Shown here: positions 1,363 to 35,888 of the stretch, one piece after another
Layout: every line of letters begins with the position of its first letter
How positions within the stretch are numbered: the stretch's first letter is position 1
Source: a virus
DNA length: 64,000 bases
Direction: 5' to 3' (one strand)
IMG/VR virus record: IMGVR_UViG_3300027985_000843
Span: 62,001 to 126,000 of that record
Notes under the pieces: generated by a model
What the model was told of the DNA's origin: nothing
Database searches by the model: none
Seen by the model: the letters and a program-made list of their open reading frames with translations, nothing else
Translations under genes and position numbers: made by a program

Positions 1363-1767
1363 CTAGCGAGCTGCCTTGTCGATTCGCTCTTCGGCTCCCT
1401 TGCTAGGAGCTTGCGGCATTGTCGTGCGGAGACGCTCGCCTGCCCACTTGGCTAGGAGCTGGAAGTCCGTGTAACCATCGAGACCATGCTTATCAGCAGC
1501 CCGACCGAGCCAGTAGTCTGCCGGCTTCTCCCGGTCGTCGCCCATCATCTTGATAGCTTCCGATCGAATCTTCTGGAACAGCTGCTTGTACTTCGCCTTG
1601 GGAAGTTGACCCCCGGCACCTGCAACCCGATCGGCGATGTCCCGCAGCTTACCTGCTAGGACGTCGCGGTCGGGCTTGCCGCCGGGGCCGTGGCCCTGGA
1701 TGAAGGCCATCAGGGAGCGGAGTTCCGCTTGCAGCTCCTGGGGAGACGCGATCTTCTGCATAGCCAT
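1363..1767 (-). CDS. Hypothetical helical protein
   Basis: This 134-residue protein starts at the ATG of MAMQKIAS; the frame upstream is open but runs into the divergent promoter region. The N-terminal half is an amphipathic helical segment (ELQAELRSLMAFI, then a Gly/Pro loop, then LAGKLRDIADRVA). The C-terminal half has a basic helix (KAKYKQLFQKIRSEAIKMM) and ends in a basic tail. I recognise no named family. It is transcribed divergently from the small plus-strand gene at 1806, with 38 bases between the two starts. It is followed directly by the HNH gene. Confidence 0.7.
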   Translation of the reverse strand: MAMQKIASPQELQAELRSLMAFIQGHGPGGKPDRDVLAGKLRDIADRVAGAGGQLPKAKYKQLFQKIRSEAIKMMGDDREKPADYWLGRAADKHGLDGYTDFQLLAKWAGERLRTTMPQAPSKGAEERIDKAAR

Positions 1768-2031: not shown

Positions 2032-3153
2032 TCACACGGTCGGCTCAAACCGAACCATGACCTCGGGTGGGATGGGCATACCCAGCACGTAGTGGGCGAA
2101 CGTCTCAGCGAAGTCCTCCCCCACGCCCGTCTTGGCGTACTGACTCACCGTGACGGTGTTGTTGTCCCCGATGAACACGTACTTCCGACCGGGCCGAACG
2201 AAGTTCCGTTCGAGCCACATCTCCCCTCGCTTGTATGCTGCGGTAGCATCCTTCTGCGACATCCCCGAGCCTGAGAAGGTATCCTTGAAGTATTCGATCA
2301 AGGGGACGTTCGGGTCCTTGAGGAACCCCACGGCCTTCGCAGGAGAGAAGTCCCCTCGAACAAGAGCCTGCCACATGTCCTGACGCGCCTCAAGAGTGAT
2401 ACCCTCTCCCTTGGAGTAGTTGTCCTCGTAGGCGTCTCTCTGGGGCCCTGAGAGCTTCTTGTGCCAGTAGCGGTGTCCAAGCTCGTGGACGAAGGTGTGG
2501 ACGTCGCTGAAGCGGAACCTAGCCTCCGCATTGAGCAAGACTATGTCGGGCGACTCCTTGTACATGCCCGCCCAGCTCTTCCGGCCCTTGTCCTCGGACC
2601 CACCGACGAGATAGACATCCCCGTACAGAATGCTACCGAAGCCCTTGGACTGTATCTTGCTCGAAGCGTCATCCAACAGCTTCATGGCCTCCGCATACTC
2701 TTCCGGGCGGTAGCCGAACTTGTTGATGATCTTGAACGGCCCGTGCTGGAAGTCCTTCTCGACCGTCCGATACGAGTCGAGGCGGTCCTGGACCCTCACG
2801 AGGGACTTGAGGGAATCCTCGATGCTTTCGAGCTGGATCGAAATCCAGGAAACAGCATCTTGTGTGGGGCCGCTCAGGTTCTTCTCAGCGAACGGATACT
2901 TGAGACGATGCAACCACTGAAGGACGCTCTTCATCTTCCGTTGCTCGTCCTTGCGCTCGAATCGAACACCATCGAGCATGGTCGCAAGAGGGCTCAGCTG
3001 CTCGCCCATCTTCCGGAACAGTTCGACGGCCCCCTCGGGGTCCTCTCGCAACTTCCGCTCGATCTGCGGGGCCATCTTCCGGAACAGCTGGACGTAGTCC
3101 TTGACCTTCGCGGCCAGGATGTATCGAGCTACGACCTTTCGGACGTCCGTCAT
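2032..3153 (-). CDS. HExxH zinc metallopeptidase with N-terminal RVVARYL-like tag
   Basis: The 373-residue protein starts at the ATG overlapping the upstream stop (ATGA). Residues 6-14 read KVVARYILA, a short peptide repeated across this operon. A long charged helical region follows (about 15-135). The catalytic motif HELGH is at 223-227 and a second conserved segment EDFAETFAHY at 346-355. The latter has the position and form of a gluzincin third zinc ligand (Glu). The fold type is clear, but the substrate is unknown. There is no signal peptide. It is the last gene of a four-gene coupled operon that also encodes two other HExxH enzymes. Confidence 0.85.
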   Translation of the reverse strand: MTDVRKVVARYILAAKVKDYVQLFRKMAPQIERKLREDPEGAVELFRKMGEQLSPLATMLDGVRFERKDEQRKMKSVLQWLHRLKYPFAEKNLSGPTQDAVSWISIQLESIEDSLKSLVRVQDRLDSYRTVEKDFQHGPFKIINKFGYRPEEYAEAMKLLDDASSKIQSKGFGSILYGDVYLVGGSEDKGRKSWAGMYKESPDIVLLNAEARFRFSDVHTFVHELGHRYWHKKLSGPQRDAYEDNYSKGEGITLEARQDMWQALVRGDFSPAKAVGFLKDPNVPLIEYFKDTFSGSGMSQKDATAAYKRGEMWLERNFVRPGRKYVFIGDNNTVTVSQYAKTGVGEDFAETFAHYVLGMPIPPEVMVRFEPTV

Positions 3154-6100
3154 CGCTGGCCCCTGTTCGCCAAGTAGCGGGCGATGACGCGAGCCATCCG
3201 GATCTCTCCCGGGATGGTCACGTTGAGCCACTTGCGAATTTGGGGGAGGACCGTTCGAGGGCCGTAGGCGACCAGCATGCCGACAGCCTCACAGAACGCC
3301 TCCTCAGAGTTCTTGTTGGCGTACCCTGTGATGGGGTTGTTGGGGGTAGGCATTGTCGTGGTGCCCTCTTCCAACAGATCCTCGAAGTCTTGCTTCTTGG
3401 CAAGCTCTCGGTGGCGGCCGGCGTAGCCGGGCCACACAGCGTCGAGCTGGAGAGACAGAACGGGGTCCTTGTCCGCCAGGTACTCGGCGAACTCGTAGGA
3501 CCACATGTCCCCGGGCCACTTCGCGAGAAGCTCCCGGATGTCGAGGTCACCGTAATCCCCGTAGATGGCCTCCGACCAATAGTCCTTGGCTCCCCCGCCC
3601 AACAACTTCCACAGGTGGTGGCCCATCTCATGGGCCATCGTCTTGACGAGCTTGTCAGGGTTGCTGCTGACAGCTGCGGAGGCGTAGATCGTGATGGTCC
3701 CGTCGTGGTTGTATCGACCGCCTTCCCCGATCGTGGCTTCGAACTCGAAGATCATCGGGAGCTGATTCTTTGCCATCCACGGCATCCGCTCTGCGGACCT
3801 CTTGCGGAACAGCTTGAGGGCCTCCTTGAGCATCGCCATCTCTTCGGCGTTGTAGCGATCGTTCTGCTTGTAACCCCGGACTTCGATCCTGAAGCCCTCC
3901 AAGATGACTTGCTCTCGACCTGGAACCTCAGCCTGCAACGTCGCGGGCTCGTCGGGGTCCTTGTATCGGCGGTTGTTCGGGTCTTCATAGTAGTCGATGG
4001 CCTCCCGCACCGCTTTCCAGAACACCTGAGCCTTCCGCCTGATTCGCTTCTCCCACGCCTTGACATCCTGCTGGTACCGGCTGAATCGAACCGTCTCAGG
4101 CATGAAGTCCGTAGCCCTGTCGATGGGCAAGTCGGCTTCGATGTAGAAGTCCCATCCGGACTTGCGAAGCATGTAGTCGATGTTCTTGCGGACGTTTTCC
4201 TTGATCCGCTCATCGTACTTGAGCGACTTGTTCAAGAAGCGCTCGAACATCAGGTCGGCGAACCGCTTGCCCCACACATTGAAGGCTTCCTTGAGCCGGA
4301 TGGCCGTATCATAGTCCTTGACGCGAGGGACGTTCTTCATGAGGGTGAGGAAGTCAGCCCTCATCTTGTCGACCCATGGTTGATCGATCTGGACCAGCTC
4401 GGTTGCGTATCGAGCCACAACACGATTGACGAGGGAGGCCGCGAACGGAACCGGCTCGTAGTCCTCATCGGGGGTTACTTTGCAAGTCGGGCACGCCTGG
4501 CACACGTCGTCAGCCCGCTCTTTGAGCTGCTTGAGTCTACGCTTCTCCTTGGTCGCCCGTTCCTGTTCCTTGTACCAAGCATCCTCGTACTTGTCTTGGC
4601 CGGTCTCACACTTGCGCTCCAACCGTATTTGCTTCTGACGCTCACGCTCCATTTGGGCGATCTCTCGATCGGCGTTTTCCTGGAGCCACGCGTCATTCTC
4701 GTAGGGATGCTCCTCGATGTACTCCATGAACTGCTCGGCCCGTTCATCGGGGGTGCCTTTGAACTGGTTTTTGAGCTTGTTCCACAGGCCGTGATACTCG
4801 GACGGAATATTGTACTGTGCCCGCTCGTCTCGTTCCCTCCGACGTTCCCAGCCCCTCTGTTGTGGCGACAGCGCAATCCGGTCGGCCGACTTGTCCAGCC
4901 GATGCATGACCGTGCCGTCTTTCATGTACGTGTCTTCGAGGCCCGGGACAAGGTACTGACTCCGAAGCGTGGAAGCCTCGTGCCCGACAGCGGCAGCCGT
5001 TTCCTCCAGGGCCTTCTTGAACTCCTCCTTGAGGACGGCCTGCCGTTCCTTCGCGTCCGTGGGGAGCTTGCCCTTGCGGACAGCCTTGAGGCGCCGCTTC
5101 ATTTCCTCGTTGGCGTGCAGTCCCCGGATGTCTTTCGCCGTGATGTCGAACTTCTGAAGGTACGCATTGATCTTGGTCGCGTCGATCTTGCCTGTGTCAT
5201 GGCAGAACAGGCAGTCTTCGCCTTCCACGGCCTCGTAGGCATCCCGCAACGCCTTGACCAACGCTGCGCTGCTGACCGTTTTCTTCTGCTTGACGCCGGA
5301 CTTGCCAACGTAGGTGACCGTCGCCTTGCCTCGACCGAAGCTGACGTGATTCTTTTGCCAGCCGGTGACCCCGAAGTGACCATCCTTCGCTGAAGTGTCG
5401 TTGCCAACCCGCTCATACGTCTCGTCGATCAGCCCCACGGCCAGTGCCGTGAGGAACTTGTTCGGGTCGGAGGACTTGAGGTCCTTCGCCACCTGGGCCC
5501 GCAAGCCGTCGATGCTCTTGCGGAGCTTCTCGACGCGCTTCGCCTTCTCTCGGTTGCGGTGTTGGACCTGCCCTTCACTGTACTCGTAGACGGTCGTGGT
5601 TCCCTCACCGTCCTGCTTCGGAACCTGCTTCTTGTTCTTGTATCGAGCCGCCGTCCGCTTCTCCCGCTCGACCGGCTTGCCGTCGATGAGAATCTCGTGC
5701 GTCCGGTCAGCCCCATCGCCATCGACACCCGCGATGGCTTCACCGTCGACGTCGATGGAGGTCGAGTGGCCCACATCCCCAAGATACTTGATCTCGGCAA
5801 GCACCTTCTCGATGGCCTTGAGAGTGTCGCCCTCCACATCCACCTCGATAGTGTGGCGAGCCGCTTCCAGGTACCGGGCCACCACGCGTGTGGGGCCGTC
5901 TCCCCCGGGCCCATTCTCCCCGCACTCCCCCGTCTCGGGGCAGCGGTAGGCATCCCGGCCGTCGTCATAGATGGGCTCAGAGGGGCACTCAAGCAGGTCA
6001 GGGCCCGTTTGGCTAGGCAGGTCCCACAGGTGAGCCGCGACGACCCTGGTGGCCCCTCCTAGGGCCTCCAGGGCCGAGGTCACGCCGGGGATGACATCCA

Positions 6101-6425
6101 TGGCCGAGACCTCGCGAATGGGGACCCACTGATACTCGGACGATTCGTAGTTGAGCGTGGGCTCACCCTCCGAGTCGAACGTGTGGAAGTAGGTGACCGT
6201 CGCCGTGGGCATGTTGAGCGTGATGACCTTGGTCAGGTAGTTGACTGCGAGCCCCGCCTCTTCTTGCGTCTCCCGGATGGCCGCCTCCACCACGGCCTCG
6301 TCATCTTCGACACCACCCGTCGGGAAGTTCCACTTGCCGGGCATCCACGGAGCCGTAGGGCCTCGCTTGAGCAGCAGGACAGAGTCGCCTCGTTGAATGA
6401 TGGTGGCTGCAACGGTCTTGGTCAT
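3150..6425 (-). CDS. Nudix hydrolase - type IB topoisomerase - HExxH metallopeptidase fusion
   Basis: This 1091-residue multidomain protein starts at an ATGA overlap. Residues 1-125 are a Nudix hydrolase with a complete box at 37-59 (GG..E43..R51E52..E55E56.G58). A TopIB domain covers about 260-505, with a full candidate pentad R339 (RVGN), K375 (GKSG), R434 (KDIRG), H482 and Tyr491 (SQY). These spacings resemble the vaccinia enzyme. A Lys/Glu-rich linker with a CxxCxxC (642-648) follows. The C-terminal metallopeptidase has HEMGHH at 932-937 and SEEAFCEAV near 1040. RVVARYL-like peptides sit at 127-134, 180-190, 668-674 and 1079-1085, separating and ending the domains. It may act as a polyprotein or a multifunctional virion protein; both readings are inference. 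Confidence 0.85.
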   Translation of the reverse strand: MTKTVAATIIQRGDSVLLLKRGPTAPWMPGKWNFPTGGVEDDEAVVEAAIRETQEEAGLAVNYLTKVITLNMPTATVTYFHTFDSEGEPTLNYESSEYQWVPIREVSAMDVIPGVTSALEALGGATRVVAAHLWDLPSQTGPDLLECPSEPIYDDGRDAYRCPETGECGENGPGGDGPTRVVARYLEAARHTIEVDVEGDTLKAIEKVLAEIKYLGDVGHSTSIDVDGEAIAGVDGDGADRTHEILIDGKPVEREKRTAARYKNKKQVPKQDGEGTTTVYEYSEGQVQHRNREKAKRVEKLRKSIDGLRAQVAKDLKSSDPNKFLTALAVGLIDETYERVGNDTSAKDGHFGVTGWQKNHVSFGRGKATVTYVGKSGVKQKKTVSSAALVKALRDAYEAVEGEDCLFCHDTGKIDATKINAYLQKFDITAKDIRGLHANEEMKRRLKAVRKGKLPTDAKERQAVLKEEFKKALEETAAAVGHEASTLRSQYLVPGLEDTYMKDGTVMHRLDKSADRIALSPQQRGWERRRERDERAQYNIPSEYHGLWNKLKNQFKGTPDERAEQFMEYIEEHPYENDAWLQENADREIAQMERERQKQIRLERKCETGQDKYEDAWYKEQERATKEKRRLKQLKERADDVCQACPTCKVTPDEDYEPVPFAASLVNRVVARYATELVQIDQPWVDKMRADFLTLMKNVPRVKDYDTAIRLKEAFNVWGKRFADLMFERFLNKSLKYDERIKENVRKNIDYMLRKSGWDFYIEADLPIDRATDFMPETVRFSRYQQDVKAWEKRIRRKAQVFWKAVREAIDYYEDPNNRRYKDPDEPATLQAEVPGREQVILEGFRIEVRGYKQNDRYNAEEMAMLKEALKLFRKRSAERMPWMAKNQLPMIFEFEATIGEGGRYNHDGTITIYASAAVSSNPDKLVKTMAHEMGHHLWKLLGGGAKDYWSEAIYGDYGDLDIRELLAKWPGDMWSYEFAEYLADKDPVLSLQLDAVWPGYAGRHRELAKKQDFEDLLEEGTTTMPTPNNPITGYANKNSEEAFCEAVGMLVAYGPRTVLPQIRKWLNVTIPGEIRMARVIARYLANRGQR

Positions 6426-7786
6426 TGTGCTTTTCCGTGAAGGTAGCGGTGCACCACCTGGAAGGCCAGCTTGGAGACAGGCTTGCCGCCAAATCCCGAG
6501 AGCCACAAGGTGCGACGCATCCGGTACAGAGCGTTGGGCGGCAACTTCTCTGGTGAAACCATGAACAAGACGAAGGTGTCGGCGAAGTCCTCTTTCTCGT
6601 CCGTGGTTCCATATTCGGTCGGAATCTGCAATTGCTCGTAGAGAGCCTTCAGAGCTTCCCCTACCTCAGGGTTCTCCCGCCGAAGAAGGTTGACCGTGTC
6701 GGGGGCGATGCGGAGTCCTGAGGAGTACCCCAGGCCCAAGATCTTCTTCTTGTGAGCAACCACCCTCTCCACTGTGCGATCGAAGTCAGGATCGTCTGGG
6801 GAATAGCCGTAGTTCGTTTTTACATAGAGCTGTGGATTCCGGATGACGTCGAAGAGTTGCTGCCCTCGCTTGGTGAGCCGAAATTGATTCGCCGCGATGA
6901 GCGGGTCACCCATCCCAGGGTCTCGAAGCCAGTAGGCAAATTTGACTTTGTCGAGCCCCTTGAGGCGGCGGGCCGTCTTGGCGGGGTTGAAGTCGTCTTT
7001 TTCGAGCAACGCGTAGTAGCGTTCCAGTTCGTTGGGCTTGATCTGATCCAACAAGCTTCGTGTGTCGTGGATGGGGTCCCAAGCACCGTCCCAGAACTCT
7101 CGGGCTTCTCCCTTGATGTAGGTCATGTGCACGAAGTGACCGAACTCGTGCATGAACGACCCCATAATCCACGATCCTGTTCCGAGCATCCGGTGGGGAC
7201 CGTCCTCGGTGAACATGGTCTTGCCCAACACGATGGTTTGCGCGTGCGAAACGTAAAGAGCGCCAGCATCATCCGTGTCCTGAAGGACAACTTTCTTGAC
7301 TCCTTCCTGGAGGAGTTCCGGCACACCGCGCTTCTTGAAGGTAGCCCGCAGAAAGTCGATCGCATCAAACAGCTTTTGCAGCCGCTTGGGCCCAAGACGG
7401 AACTGATCCGTGACTGGAAAGCCCTTGTACTGGAACTGGGCCGGCCCGATCTGGCCCAAGAACTGTTGGAGGGTCTGCTCGAACCGGTCGAGTTGGCCCA
7501 ACAGCTCCTGGTAGTCCTCCGGTTTTTGGTTGTCTGACAACGCCAAGAGAACGGGGCCTCTCGGCCGCATCGCGTCCAGAGTGGCCTCAGCGTCTCCACC
7601 GAAAGCCAGCAAAACCCAGTCAATGAAGCCCTTTTGCGTTGTGAGCATCAGGGCGTTGGGGGCGAACGTGTAGCGATCGAACACGTCCTTAGCCTGAGGA
7701 GTACCGAGGCGCACGGCCCGCACTTCTTGGGCAGCCCTCTGGAATGCTTCCAGATCCTTCTTGGCCTCTTCCCACTCTCGGGTCAT
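6422..7786 (-). CDS. HExxH zinc metallopeptidase with C-terminal RVVARYL-like tag
   Basis: The 454-residue protein starts at an ATGA overlap with the upstream gene. HEFGH is at 213-217 (FMHEFGHFVHM) and the likely third-ligand segment EDFADTF at 399-405, the same arrangement as the enzyme at 2032-3153. A mostly helical N-terminal domain precedes the catalytic core. The protein ends in FQVVHRYLHG (442-451), a variant of the operon's repeated peptide, here at the C-terminus instead of the N-terminus. It has no secretion signal. The substrate is unknown; virion processing or host-protein cleavage are possibilities only. Confidence 0.85.
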   Translation of the reverse strand: MTREWEEAKKDLEAFQRAAQEVRAVRLGTPQAKDVFDRYTFAPNALMLTTQKGFIDWVLLAFGGDAEATLDAMRPRGPVLLALSDNQKPEDYQELLGQLDRFEQTLQQFLGQIGPAQFQYKGFPVTDQFRLGPKRLQKLFDAIDFLRATFKKRGVPELLQEGVKKVVLQDTDDAGALYVSHAQTIVLGKTMFTEDGPHRMLGTGSWIMGSFMHEFGHFVHMTYIKGEAREFWDGAWDPIHDTRSLLDQIKPNELERYYALLEKDDFNPAKTARRLKGLDKVKFAYWLRDPGMGDPLIAANQFRLTKRGQQLFDVIRNPQLYVKTNYGYSPDDPDFDRTVERVVAHKKKILGLGYSSGLRIAPDTVNLLRRENPEVGEALKALYEQLQIPTEYGTTDEKEDFADTFVLFMVSPEKLPPNALYRMRRTLWLSGFGGKPVSKLAFQVVHRYLHGKAQ

Positions 7787-8205
7787 CGTGCCGCCGCTCC
7801 TGCCACTTGGGCGAGGTTCTTGCCCATCGCCACGCGGGCCTTCTCTTTGGCGTACTGCTCCTGGCGGGCAGTTGCCTTGATCCGCAAGGTCTGTAAGTCC
7901 TTGCCCCGTTGGGTACCGAAAGGCGTGACGCTAATACCACGGTACGGCTTCTTTTCCTCCTGGAACGCGTCGTAGTCTCGCTGGTACCGCGCACTCAGCT
8001 CCTCAGCCTCTTGGCGGAGAGACTCCAAGCTCTTTGGGTCCGTTCCCGTACCCCAGCACTGAACACACAGGTGTTTGACTTGAGCCGTCTTCTCCACGTG
8101 GACACCCTCTCCCCCACAATGCTTGCAAGGGTCCAGCCGCACAGGAGGAACATTGAGCATTCGGGCCGCGTACCGGGCCACTACTCGGAAGAGAAGGTCA
8201 TGCAT
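7783..8205 (-). CDS. DnaJ-like zinc-binding protein with N-terminal RVVARYL-like tag
   Basis: This is a roughly 140-residue protein. After MHDLLFRVVARYAARML comes a pair of CxxCxGxG-type zinc knuckles (CKHCGGEG and CVQCWGTG), the pattern of the DnaJ cysteine-rich domain. The rest is a charged coiled-coil-like helix with a basic Ala-rich tail. There is no J-domain HPD motif, so it is not a full DnaJ. It is the first gene of the four-gene coupled operon. The ATG at 8205 was preferred to an adjacent GTG, and a purine-rich GGGAAGG lies just upstream. Confidence 0.75.
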   Translation of the reverse strand: MHDLLFRVVARYAARMLNVPPVRLDPCKHCGGEGVHVEKTAQVKHLCVQCWGTGTDPKSLESLRQEAEELSARYQRDYDAFQEEKKPYRGISVTPFGTQRGKDLQTLRIKATARQEQYAKEKARVAMGKNLAQVAGAAAR

Positions 8206-10835: not shown

Positions 10836-11336
10836 TCAGTCCTCCATGTCAAAGTCGAAGTCATCGTCTGACGACAGCCGGCCGTACGCGGTCTTGGGAC
10901 GGCGGGGCCGATAAGGCTTCTCTGCCAGCCTCTTCCGATCCTTGGTGTTCATGAACGAGAATTTGACCTTCGCCTTGCTTACGCCCCTCTCGTGGTGAAT
11001 GAGGAGAATTTCACCCGGTCGAAGGCGTAACGCAGGGTTGAAGAAGATCGAGCCCCCGCTGCTGATCATGCCGCTCGGGACCCAATCGTCCAGGGGCTTG
11101 GTCATCTCCCCGTTGCGGGAGATGTTGAGGATGCGCCCCTTCGAGGCCCGCATCGGAAGGGCCATGAACGGCCAGTCCTGCGGAGTGTGTACCACCCGAA
11201 CACCGTCGACAGGCGTGTCTGGGACTTCGATCTTGGACCCCGACCAACTCGCCAGAGTGAGGGTCCTGTACTCGGAGCTGTGGAACGTGACCTTCCACAG
11301 CTGGCCGTCCGTCCAGACAATGTCGCCCAGCTTCAT
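10836..11336 (-). CDS. Hypothetical protein with leaderless start
   Basis: This is a 166-residue beta-rich protein beginning MKLGDIVWTDGQLWKV, with an SH3-like N-terminal barrel, a basic segment (KPYRPRRPK) and an acidic Asp-rich tail. The ATG at 11336 is chosen over the in-frame upstream start because GGTGTA lies exactly ten bases upstream of it and would otherwise be translated. There is no Shine-Dalgarno sequence. It resembles a nucleic-acid-binding small domain, but no family can be named. Confidence 0.65.
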   Translation of the reverse strand: MKLGDIVWTDGQLWKVTFHSSEYRTLTLASWSGSKIEVPDTPVDGVRVVHTPQDWPFMALPMRASKGRILNISRNGEMTKPLDDWVPSGMISSGGSIFFNPALRLRPGEILLIHHERGVSKAKVKFSFMNTKDRKRLAEKPYRPRRPKTAYGRLSSDDDFDFDMED

Positions 11337-11342
11337 GCGGGC

Positions 11343-11354
11343 AGTATACACCAA
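11343..11354 (-). promoter_or_regulatory. GGTGTA-class element before 10836-11336
   Basis: On the minus strand this reads TTGGTGTATACT, with GGTGTA at 11352-11347 and ten bases to the ATG. TATACT is a good -10 hexamer with an extended TG, six bases before the start codon. No Shine-Dalgarno sequence is present, so a leaderless mRNA is inferred. It overlaps the stop region of the upstream gene. Confidence 0.6.
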
Positions 11355-19878: not shown

Positions 19879-20447
19879 GATACCCTTCCCTTGGTCCACG
19901 CCTGGACCTCTTTGATAACGTGCTCCCACGAGGGGACCCGGAGATCGTCGCAGTCGATCACCCGTTGGTTGTTGCGGGAGTTCCAGACCATGCCCACACC
20001 ATCCGGGTGAGCATCCATCCAGGACCGAACGTTGTCTGGGCTGTCATCGACGATGAAGTCTCCATCAACGACTGACTTGTCCTTCGTGTATACCTGGTGG
20101 TTTTTGCTGATGTTGAACACCCGAACCAGATAGTTCGAGCGCTCCTCCGCCCAGCTCAGTGCGGAGGTCACAGTACGAACGTCGGCGACCTGTTGTAGCC
20201 TCCAAACAGCATCGAGGGCCTCCGGGTGGGGCTTCAAACGAAGGCTCCAACCGGGAGTGTGGATGACCGCCATCACCAGTTGGAGCTGTCGTTCGTTGAG
20301 GACCTTGAAGAGGTCCCACTCTTGGGGCCCCTCCTCAAGAGTCCACTTGCGGCCCAAGATATCCGAGATGAGCTTCTCCGCCTCTGTCTCGAAGTCGACC
20401 ATCACGTCGTCTACGTCCAACAGGACGCGGGGTTTGATTCTAACCAT
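19875..20447 (-). CDS. 5'-deoxyribonucleotidase-like HAD phosphatase
   Basis: The 190-residue protein opens with the HAD nucleophile motif LLDVDDVMVDF (D11, D13) and has a late FIVDDSPDNV acidic motif typical of the NT5C/5'(3')-deoxyribonucleotidase group. A motif II Thr/Ser (VTSA) lies in between. Such enzymes dephosphorylate dNMPs and tune pools of dUMP/dTMP. Placement directly before thyX, with overlapping start and stop, supports a role in thymidylate metabolism. The ATG overlaps the end of the upstream gene. Confidence 0.75.
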   Translation of the reverse strand: MVRIKPRVLLDVDDVMVDFETEAEKLISDILGRKWTLEEGPQEWDLFKVLNERQLQLVMAVIHTPGWSLRLKPHPEALDAVWRLQQVADVRTVTSALSWAEERSNYLVRVFNISKNHQVYTKDKSVVDGDFIVDDSPDNVRSWMDAHPDGVGMVWNSRNNQRVIDCDDLRVPSWEHVIKEVQAWTKGRVS

Positions 20448-20694
20448 TCAGCATGTCCTCGAAGTCGTCCAGTTTTGGGTCATCGTGCAGCAACCTCGAC
20501 CACGCATCCGTCTTGCCCTCAGGTCCTTTGGCTACCACGGACATGGCAGCACTCACCTCGTCGAACTCCTTCTGAGTTCGGCACTTGGCGAGCATCTGTC
20601 GGAAGGTAGCGGCCTCGTCGGTTTTGACCTTGCCGGCCTTGACGAGGAATTCGAGGGACGTGAGGTAGCGTTGCTTGGTGTATCGGCGGCTCAC
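20440..20694 (-). CDS. Small hypothetical protein with GTG start
   Basis: An 84-residue helical, charged protein beginning (GTG)SRRYTKQRYLTS. The GTG is supported by a GGTGTA element exactly ten bases upstream. No cysteines or catalytic residues stand out; the C-terminus is acidic (LDDFEDMLNG). It overlaps the deoxyribonucleotidase start by eight bases and probably heads the nucleotidase-thyX transcription unit. Confidence 0.65.
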   Translation of the reverse strand: MSRRYTKQRYLTSLEFLVKAGKVKTDEAATFRQMLAKCRTQKEFDEVSAAMSVVAKGPEGKTDAWSRLLHDDPKLDDFEDMLNG

Positions 20695-34000: not shown

Positions 34001-34534
34001 CTATCTTACTTCGCACGTACCGGGAGGTGCCGGATCGGGCACACCATCCCACCAAGTGCTCACGAGCTTCGCCACCCCCTTTGTCTCCACAGCAAAGACA
34101 ATCGTGAGCCGGGACGGGGTCGTGTAGCGAATCTTTTGCCCCTGTTCGATCATGGCCGACAACACGCCATAGAAGGGGTCGTTCCTCTTGCGAAGGGCGT
34201 GTGCCTCCTTGGCCCATTCGACGAAGGCTTTCTGCACGTCTTTGACGGAGACTTTGCGAAGATCCATCCGGTATTGAGCGTGCGGGCCGATGAGCACCTT
34301 GGTGACGATGCTCTTGGTCTTCTCCACTTGCAGGTCGTAGACCTTGGCCGCGTCAGGATTGGACAAGGGCTTGCCGTTCTCGACCTGCTCGACCAGCTTG
34401 TCCTTGAGGCGCGGGTTCTGGATCTCTTGATCCACTCGCTGGACCACCTGGCAAGGGCCTCCTGGCCGCCCAAGAGGCGGGTTCAGGTCGGCAAGGAATC
34501 TCCGAACGACACCTTCTGCGGTTGCATGCGTCAT
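34001..34534 (-). CDS. Hypothetical protein with N-terminal RVVARYL-like segment
   Basis: A 177-residue protein starting MTHATAEGVVRRFLADL, where residues 8-15 are a diverged copy of the RVVARYL peptide. The middle holds a HAQYRMDLRKVSVKDVQKAF segment reminiscent of small DUF4258/RelE-like folds, but the match is weak. The ATG overlaps the stop of the upstream secreted-protein gene (ATGA). The function is unknown. Confidence 0.6.
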   Translation of the reverse strand: MTHATAEGVVRRFLADLNPPLGRPGGPCQVVQRVDQEIQNPRLKDKLVEQVENGKPLSNPDAAKVYDLQVEKTKSIVTKVLIGPHAQYRMDLRKVSVKDVQKAFVEWAKEAHALRKRNDPFYGVLSAMIEQGQKIRYTTPSRLTIVFAVETKGVAKLVSTWWDGVPDPAPPGTCEVR

Positions 34535-35139
34535 GGGTTCCAGAAGCTGAAGGTCAGCGAGAAGTTCCAGTTGTGGTGCCAGCTGCCCCACGTCAAACCG
34601 TAGCCGCTGTAGGCCCCGAAGTTCTCCGTGAGGTCGATGCCCACCCCACCACCGATGCTGCGGTAGCCCAGGGCGGCATTGAGGTTGACCCAGTCGTAGT
34701 ACAGGAAGTCGGCCATGAAGCCCGCATCCGTCACATCGCGGAACTCTTGCGAGTCCCCATAGAGGGCTTCCAAGGGCAGCAACCCCATGTACGCCTTCGG
34801 CCGGAAGCGGAAGCCCCAGATCGGCGGCTTGTGCATCGCGGCGATCACGTGGACCTCACCCTCAGCCTTGACTTCGTAGTTGCACCAGGTCATCCGCAGA
34901 GTGTAGGGCTCCGGAGCATTCCCCGTGAAGAAGACTCGGCCGTCCCTGTCCACGACAATCCGGATGGGGTCCAGCTCGAACGTTGGCTTCTCGTCGAGCT
35001 GGCACTGCTTCTCCCGAAGCAACGTGGCGAAGACACGCATGTCCTTCTCGGGCACGCACATCGACGGCTCCGCACACTCTTGAGCCGACGCCACCGACGA
35101 CAATAGCAGGACCGCCAGAACGAACAGCCACCGGTGCAT
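34531..35139 (-). CDS. Secreted protein, probably outer-membrane or periplasmic
   Basis: This 202-residue protein has a classic signal peptide: Met-His-Arg, a 15-residue hydrophobic core, and a probable cleavage site ASA|QE near residue 20. The mature part is rich in beta-strands and aromatics and ends NFSLTFSFWNP, like a membrane beta-strand. The ATG at 35139 overlaps the upstream stop (TGATG) after a GGAGAGGAGA ribosome-binding site. A phage-encoded exported protein could serve in lysis, superinfection exclusion or envelope modification; none is shown. Confidence 0.65.
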   Translation of the reverse strand: MHRWLFVLAVLLLSSVASAQECAEPSMCVPEKDMRVFATLLREKQCQLDEKPTFELDPIRIVVDRDGRVFFTGNAPEPYTLRMTWCNYEVKAEGEVHVIAAMHKPPIWGFRFRPKAYMGLLPLEALYGDSQEFRDVTDAGFMADFLYYDWVNLNAALGYRSIGGGVGIDLTENFGAYSGYGLTWGSWHHNWNFSLTFSFWNP

Positions 35140-35888
35140 CACTGTCTCCTCTCCAGACGAGCTTTCAGCTCACGGGTGGCCGCCGCCAGCTCCTTGAGGT
35201 TCTGCGTCGAGCTGGGGCTGCCTTCGCCCGTGTTGATCCAGTTCCAGAAGTCGGGCGTCTCACACAGCTCGCACGAGGTCCCGGACTCCTTCCAGTCTTT
35301 CGACCCCCGCTCGTAACCCCACCCGAGCCCATAGTGGTGGGCAAGGGAGTTCATACACGCCTCACAGGCCGTAGCAGCCACGAGAATCGAGTCTTCAACC
35401 GACAGGGGCCGGAGGACCTTGCCATGCCTCAAGGCCGCTTCCTGGACCTCCTGGGACGACGGGCGAGCCATTGCGAGAGCGAGGTCTGTCGGCCAAGTCG
35501 ACTCGCCCGACAGGAGTGTGTAACTGCCGCTCGAATCCCACTTGTCCGGCCAAGGCTCGCCGATGTTCCGAACTTGTGTCCCTTTGCAACGTGCGCACTC
35601 CCGACCCTCTACCCCCTCGACCCACCCGTAAGTCTTGCGAAGGTCCTCTTCCGGATGAGGGCAGGTCGCAACCTCTTCGGGCAGAATCGTCCGAAGGATG
35701 GAATGCCGAAGGGACGCAGGCATCCGGTCGTGCTGGTAGATGTACCCAGGGGGAGGGACATGCCCGTCGCCGGTGCTGAAGTCGGGAATCCACCGCTCGC
35801 CCGCCTCGTTCTCGAACCACAGGGACGGGAGCAGCTGGAACCTCTGAGCGAGGCGGTAGCGAAAGACGATGCGAGCTGCGAGGTTCAT
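35139..35888 (-). CDS. Hypothetical Cys-rich protein with N-terminal RVVARYL-like tag
   Basis: A 249-residue protein starting MNLAARIVFRYRLAQRF; residues 5-12 resemble the operon tag at 3150-8205. Two zinc-like cysteine pairs follow (CARC, and CELC near the C-terminus), with another CEAC between, so it may bind two metals. The ATG overlaps the stop of the GIY-YIG gene (ATGA). It is not an obvious nuclease or protease. Confidence 0.6.
   Translation of the reverse strand: MNLAARIVFRYRLAQRFQLLPSLWFENEAGERWIPDFSTGDGHVPPPGYIYQHDRMPASLRHSILRTILPEEVATCPHPEEDLRKTYGWVEGVEGRECARCKGTQVRNIGEPWPDKWDSSGSYTLLSGESTWPTDLALAMARPSSQEVQEAALRHGKVLRPLSVEDSILVAATACEACMNSLAHHYGLGWGYERGSKDWKESGTSCELCETPDFWNWINTGEGSPSSTQNLKELAAATRELKARLERRQ

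Follow-up and report, generated by a model that had tools for sequence, protein, structure and literature searches.

A recurring RVVARYL-like peptide on unrelated proteins of large phages, a probable capsid-targeting tag

A short peptide with the consensus [RK][VI][AV].R[YF][LA], here called the RVVARYL tag, recurs at the termini and domain borders of largely unrelated proteins encoded by the 371,739-bp virus record IMGVR_UViG_3300027985_000843 (G000), and probably serves as a capsid-targeting (prohead-loading) tag, a reading given a probability of about two in three. The window, 64,000 nucleotides long, comprises bases 62,001 to 126,000 of this record; coordinates are those of the window unless marked as record positions, and the whole record was scanned. 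All four genes of the cluster at 2032-8205 are tagged, as the first-pass annotation of this DNA had claimed, and every peptide it quoted is present in the gene named, the genes lying on the minus strand. Its description of the cluster as a metallopeptidase operon holds in part: metallopeptidases are present, but gene 3150-6425 combines Nudix and TopoIB domains with a peptidase-like region. Two diverged copies that it reported at 34001 and 35139 exist as quoted, but at only ~12 bits they count as probable, not certain. The observation itself is confirmed and is larger in extent than first described. The tagged genes and tags of the window are as follows.

2032-3153, minus strand: zinc metallopeptidase with N-terminal tag, HELGHRY at 2467-2487 (Peptidase_Mx match below the curated cut-off)
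3112-3138, minus strand: tag KVVARYILA, residues 6-14 of 2032-3153
3150-6425, minus strand: polyprotein with Nudix (residues 4-106), a small domain (192-264), TopoIB (288-486) and a metallopeptidase-like C-terminal region (HEMGHH, 932-937)
6024-6050, minus strand: tag TRVVAAHLW, residues 126-134 of 3150-6425, after Nudix
5859-5891, minus strand: tag TRVVARYLEAA, residues 179-189 of 3150-6425, before the small domain
5628-5660, minus strand: degenerate fifth copy KRTAARYKNKK, residues 256-266 of 3150-6425, at the TopoIB N edge
4404-4427, minus strand: tag NRVVARYA, residues 667-674 of 3150-6425, before the peptidase region
3168-3191, minus strand: C-terminal tag RVIARYLA, residues 1079-1086 of 3150-6425
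6422-7786, minus strand: metallopeptidase-like protein with C-terminal tag, HEFGH at 7136-7150
6437-6460, minus strand: tag QVVHRYLH, residues 443-450 of 6422-7786
7783-8205, minus strand: small protein with DnaJ-like zinc-knuckle motif and N-terminal tag (DnaJ_CXXCXGXG match below the curated cut-off)
8158-8187, minus strand: tag RVVARYAARM, residues 7-16 of 7783-8205
34484-34513, minus strand: diverged tag GVVRRFLADL, gene 34001-34534
35847-35873, minus strand: diverged tag RIVFRYRLA, gene 35139-35888

The 472 genes of G000 come from a simple home-made codon-model caller, on which gene starts depend. An internal start was called for 7783-8205 and 34001-34534; the former requires an upstream start because its first CxxCGG zinc knuckle needs one. 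A position-specific scoring matrix (PSSM) derived from 13 copies was scanned over the whole-record proteome; 16 matches reached 17 bits or more, a score that no match attained after shuffling or reversal of the proteome. Fifteen of these fall at residues ~5-15 (allowing for start choice), within ~12 residues of the C-terminus or at domain borders of 3150-6425, the exception (record 149972) being an apparent chance match, probably a coiled-coil coincidence. As the matrix was trained on 13 of the scored copies, tests independent of it weigh more. A fixed strict pattern combined with zone-wise shuffling gave 8 matches at the N-termini of G000, where 0.15 are expected, and a scan over all 4-residue gapped patterns, which assumes no motif, returned RV..RY as the strongest N-terminal pattern.

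At the conserved tag positions, Arg is encoded by five or six different codons and Val by all four. The codons are thus fully varied and selection acts on the peptide, as the earlier reading of these genes had held; a DNA repeat or mobile 5' end was rejected on the same ground. Modelled as a helix, the tag is amphipathic, with a mean helical moment of 0.626 versus 0.389 after shuffling (highest value in 2000 shuffles, 0.572). Only one homologous pair exists among the 12 G000 proteins with strong copies, and one among the 16 tagged proteins of the 437-kb record G001, so that several non-homologous proteins of one phage carry the same peptide, as is typical of the capsid-targeting sequence (CTS) of phage T4.

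Related genomes show the enrichment at termini and domain borders on which the first-pass annotation had made its proposal depend. The lineage spellings RVAxRYL and RVAxRFL are N-terminally enriched in five more phage records, with 7 strict matches in G001 (0.14 expected), 5 in the 485-kb phage LR745208 (0.16) and 2 in G004 (0.01), followed by 3 in G006 and 5 in G007 (0.12 expected in each). The last two are hold-out genomes, which matter because the strict pattern was written after the first genomes had been seen. The N-termini of T4-like G005 gave no strict match (0.04 expected). Self-trained PSSMs drifted towards AK-rich repeats in G001 and unrelated sequences in LR745208, and their counts were therefore set aside in favor of the fixed-pattern zone-shuffle test. 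The phages compared are nearly all metagenomic, and their records may be incomplete.

For the metallopeptidase 2032-3153, a single-sequence search of viral contigs found no relatives, whereas a search with an alignment found five. Its homologs begin with MSQVPQADRVASRFLQAK in LR745208 and MLATRVAFRYRLA in G001, and the G004 homolog has SLRVAARYLRAK; V7, R10 and A14 of the N-terminus and the HELGHRY helix are invariant. The place of the tag varies among homologs of 6422-7786: N-terminal in L183, C-terminal in L181 (like the window protein), at both ends in L185 and L186, and upstream between domains in L182. The label thus has no fixed position. In a structural model of 6422-7786 the tail (residues 434-454) forms a helix with a predicted local distance difference test (pLDDT) score below 50 and no confident packing on the fold. 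A fold search with this model gave no significant match (best E 0.1, zincin aminopeptidases), and the peptidase found no match in the phage collection; the AlphaFold model of 2032-3153 (pLDDT 61) was too poor and was not used. The G003 homolog of 34001-34534 has RVARRYAQQR just upstream of the common domain. In LR745208, three genes (64700, 276342, 462951) have double N-terminal tags such as MPPQTLVDRYLSLRVAGRYLSAMD, whose LVDRYL resembles the LVDKYL and LVEKYL of G005.

The tag also punctuates TopoIB polyproteins in dozens of contigs. A TopoIB domain search gave 80 loci from large virus contigs, with tagged polyproteins reaching 2833 aa, and a strict tag abuts the TopoIB N edge in 28 of 55 distinct genes, whether TopoIB is the first domain (e.g. 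MTSIAARVAARYKSKKK in L100) or others precede it. Homologs of 3150-6425 have RVAARYK in place of the degenerate KRTAARYKNKK. These edge copies are not counted as independent evidence because KYKxKK belongs to the TopoIB edge itself. Among 589 non-TopoIB neighbours of TopoIB genes, the strict tag occurs 17 times at the N-terminus (0.33 expected; five are homologs of one family, that of record gene 213224), 4 times at the C-terminus (0.085) and 21 times in the middle (1.76). Polyproteins of the relatives contain InPase, RNA ligase, 2H and GNAT domains, and ART-PolyVal occurs among the tagged cargo. The simplest reading of the inter-domain copies is that separate genes, each with a tag at its N- or C-terminus, fused and retained the tags.

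Two protein families change their label between lineages. G005 is T4-like, with gp23 (E=2e-101) and an S77 protease, and ~15 of its genes begin with MKFKQYLTE, MRFNKYILED, MKDLVEKYLNS or similar, N-termini that we take to resemble the T4 CTS. Two of the genes that start in this way are homologs of tagged G000 proteins. The metallopeptidase bears KVVARYILA in G000 and MKFKQYLKED in G005 (hhalign 96.7% over 27 columns, covering the catalytic helix only), and the DUF5661 protein bears C-terminal HRVVQRFLSST in G000 and MSENKFIKYLLED in G005 (Pfam 54.7 bits). The DUF5661 protein of phage LR756500 has yet another N-terminus, MEFVKTYLEFINE, common to its neighbour genes. A receptor-specific address would be expected to produce such a pattern, in which a single cargo has a different label in each of several lineages.

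The genomic setting of many tagged genes also points to the head. At 33 of the 55 TopoIB loci a terminase, portal, head protease or major capsid protein (MCP) homolog lies within 6 kb, often in the order portal-polyprotein-protease. The head genes of G000 occupy record 198-215 kb (MCP 198484, protease 201394, portal 206975, terminase 210556). Its MCP is of the Bacillus phage G/mycobacteriophage-C type, 83-93% identical to those of G006-G009 and 49% identical to that of the isolate Tunturi_5; neither gp23 nor an S77 protease was found in G000-G004, while both are present in G005. Tagged gene 213224 of the record, with a tag conserved in L108, L129, L132, L137 and L163, lies one gene from the terminase. 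Between protease and portal, the 965-aa protein of record 204056 has the tag-like ARVVARFVDSI; its G001 homolog, beside the portal, has two tags, and the head region of G007 encodes a 1308-aa protein with two tags.

Known systems offer partial parallels. T4 packs diverse anti-host and anti-restriction proteins that have only the CTS in common (PMC3012670), and a short terminal peptide common to otherwise unrelated anti-host proteins (IPI-III, Alt) is also what the RVVARYL tag resembles. Targeting by the CTS is set mainly by residues 4 and 7 (PMC9026906), whose i,i+3 spacing recalls the V..Y spacing of the tag, and the metallopeptidase and DUF5661 families carry a CTS-like N-terminus in G005. 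In contrast to the CTS, which occupies the extreme N-terminus (first ~10 residues), the RVVARYL tag is also C-terminal and inter-domain, has a different sequence without a constant Glu (not of the MK.[FY]..[FY][LI].E type), and belongs to phages that have a phage G/mycobacteriophage-C type MCP instead of gp23 and the S77 protease. In phage P1, the N-terminal 30 residues of DarB suffice to load a reporter into the head (PMC9024508), so that an N-terminal signal sends a large injected anti-host protein there; this signal is N-terminal only and described for one protein, and the likeness is one of description, not of sequence.

Phage polyvalent proteins carry zincin peptidase, 2H, InPase, ART and GNAT-type domains, are predicted to be packaged and injected, and are often encoded beside virion genes, according to Iyer et al. 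2017 (PMC5512222). The tagged cargo matches them in its metallopeptidase, 2H, InPase, ART-PolyVal and GNAT domains. Polyvalent proteins combine at least two conflict or effector domains, usually with a peptidase, and 3150-6425 does so with Nudix, TopoIB and the HEMGHH region; 33 of the 55 TopoIB loci lie near virion genes, and the 2032-8205 cluster lies apart from the head genes of G000. They differ in that no common peptide at termini or domain borders was found described in the searched passages of the source, and in that TopoIB and RNA ligase recur here as modules and single-domain tagged relatives exist.

Enzymes are also loaded into protein shells by short terminal peptides in bacteria. 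Encapsulation peptides of microcompartments are amphipathic helices at the N-terminus, at the C-terminus or between domains, and the cargo-loading peptides of encapsulins are short and terminal. These belong to bacterial organelles rather than a phage head, and the parallel again lies in description, not in sequence. Relative to known capsid targeting, the RVVARYL tag would be new in acting at either end or internally and in coexisting with two further terminal tags. Strings of the VVARYL or MKFKQYL type were not found in open-access literature text, bar one unrelated match; a peptide text search is weak evidence of novelty, and the tag is "not found" rather than proved new.

If the RVVARYL peptide is a prohead-loading tag, the short amphipathic helix would bring tagged proteins to the core inside the immature head by binding a receptor there, a scaffold or core protein; the candidates in the head cluster are the C-terminal part of record 201394 and the proteins of 202884, 203339 and 204056. 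They would be enclosed in the head together with DNA and ejected into the host to act at the start of infection, and the head protease may remove the tag. Sorting or packaging was among the functions first suggested for the peptide, and after comparison with related and T4-like phages it is the best supported, though still by inference. Several observations weigh against a role in the head. To our knowledge, C-terminal and internal capsid targeting have no precedent, the T4 and P1 signals being N-terminal. The 2032-8205 cluster lies ~130 kb from the head genes of its own record, and the isolate relatives by MCP (Tunturi_5 and Bacillus phage G) lack the tag in 50-kb head-gene regions. No virion proteomics was found for these phages, the Tunturi_5 paper reporting none. 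No S77 protease was found, nor, by inspection, an LxE cleavage consensus beside the tag, and one tagged G001 protein is an AAA ATPase, which is not obvious cargo.

That ATPase would fit a docking helix for a hub in the infected cell, such as a phage compartment, replisome, membrane site or chaperone. A position-independent amphipathic helix would suit any docking partner, and two other tags of these phages, YDYDR and PTxWERL (described below), never occur on the same protein as RVVARYL, so that the phage may have several intracellular addresses. Docking outside the head is nevertheless unlikely, given that in relatives terminase, portal and protease genes surround many of the tagged ones, that the cargo domains match those of injected proteins, and that the same domains bear T4-type capsid-targeting sequences in a T4-like phage. 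In polyproteins, which reach 2833 aa, the copies at the borders of domains could instead be cleavage sites at which a head or cargo protease separates the domains; metallopeptidases and a head protease are encoded, and T4 propeptides are cut just after the targeting residues (PMC9026906). Yet only 1-6 residues follow the C-terminal copies, N-terminal copies stand on single-domain proteins, no constant residue follows the tag, and G001 keeps the TopoIB-peptidase fusion without a tag copy at that border. Processing alone, the third function first suggested, fits poorly because C-terminal tags release nothing and some homologs have no inter-domain copy, and is quite improbable; cleavage after targeting is compatible with capsid targeting.

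It is very improbable that the tag is a structural element of the adjoining domain, for instance the first TopoIB helix, or that the genes have it by common descent. Since the TopoIB edge itself includes KYKxKK, the domain accounts for part of the RVAARYK signal at that place, but the TopoIB match to solved structures begins ~20 columns after the tag, and membership of the TopoIB fold was rejected accordingly. This explanation is already contradicted: the tag stands beside no fewer than ten unrelated families, the proteins that bear it show no homology with one another (one pair excepted), and among homologs it shifts position or is lost. Chance or composition is equally contradicted and has a negligible probability: Arg, Val and Ala are common in this genome of 59% GC, but shuffled and reversed proteomes reach the score of the 16 real matches in no case and the enrichment was replicated in the hold-out genomes.

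If the peptide is a loading signal, it would provide a sequence-readable list of the head contents of a huge, uncultured phage, and every tagged open reading frame would be a candidate injected effector or anti-defence protein. The candidates would include peptidases, an Acb1-like 2H phosphoesterase, Nudix, TopoIB and DUF5661 proteins and many without an assigned function. Labels would be readable lineage by lineage, a cheap means of finding injected proteins in metagenomes, and the peptides would form a ready-made set with which to load enzymes into heads of phages. Polyvalent polyproteins would also gain a simple origin, in the fusion of genes that each had a tag.

Eight further strongly tagged genes of G000 lie outside the window; they are given here in record coordinates with those of the cluster and the weaker copies.

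31466: 2H phosphoesterase, C-terminal tag (Acb1 model 28.5 bits, cut-off 27)
64032 (window 2032) and 273890: zinc metallopeptidases, N-terminal tag
65150 (window 3150): Nudix, TopoIB and peptidase-like region, four strong copies and the degenerate fifth
68422 (window 6422): HEFGH metallopeptidase-like, C-terminal tag
69783 (window 7783): DnaJ-like zinc motif, N-terminal tag
173820, 213224, 255883, 259131 and 316802: N-terminal tag, no function assigned
335849: DUF5661, C-terminal tag HRVVQRFLSST
560, 9967, 26663, 96001, 97139, 194444 and 308309: weaker tag copies

The protein of record 273890 has an additional below-cut-off match to another zincin family, PF07737, which is read as the common zincin fold only.

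Two further peptides mark other proteins of these phages. The unbiased pattern scan found N-terminal YDYDRTAA on 12 largely non-homologous proteins of G000 (record 256634, 257344, 277556, 288555, 289782) and G001 (259297, 275230, 275515, 275848, 287878, 288270, 302151). The small domain behind TRVVARYLEAA in 3150-6425 is a separate YDYDR-tagged protein in G001 (275230; E=1e-10), which suggests that the two tags can replace each other. The third peptide, PTxWERL/PTRFDRI (PTxWERLL), is mostly C-terminal on largely unrelated small proteins, 7 in G000 and 16 in G001, and PTRFDRI occurs in G006 and G007. Six further G000 genes carry it beyond the following window sites.

10863-10895: PTxWERLL/PTRFDRI-type peptide, gene 10836-11351
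20479-20511: possible peptide of this type, gene 20440-20694

Neither peptide ever shares a protein with RVVARYL. A multi-code address system can be proposed tentatively, at somewhat less than even odds, in which at least three mutually exclusive terminal tags would sort dozens of unrelated proteins to the head or other destinations. RVVARYL would be position-independent, cargo genes would swap the local tag between lineages, and fusions would yield tag-punctuated polyproteins.

Several head-cluster genes have features of their own. The protein of record 204056-206953, like its G001 homolog at 345056, is charged and extended and is a candidate core or cargo protein; TopoIB polyproteins of L124, L153 and L154 also contain its conserved element EAERLVRxxPKxKPPRxDxRRxR. 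A small conserved gene beside the head protease (record 203339-204046) has homologs in L144, L154, L162 and LR745208 (402952) with an internal tag-like RVASRHLKxAxYWA, making it a possible tag-binding or tag-mimicking head component. An N-terminal module, KIASPQELQAEL, is common to three G000 genes (window 1363-1767; record 202884 and 262854), one of which adjoins the head protease, and also occurs at G001 221694. In the head cluster of Tunturi_5 (PP885688), the 1362-aa gp321 (261501-265589), annotated as a Nudix hydrolase, reads as a polyprotein with a peptidase motif, 2H-like motifs and others; the SKAAA-type stretches that recur between its parts may be the label of another lineage.

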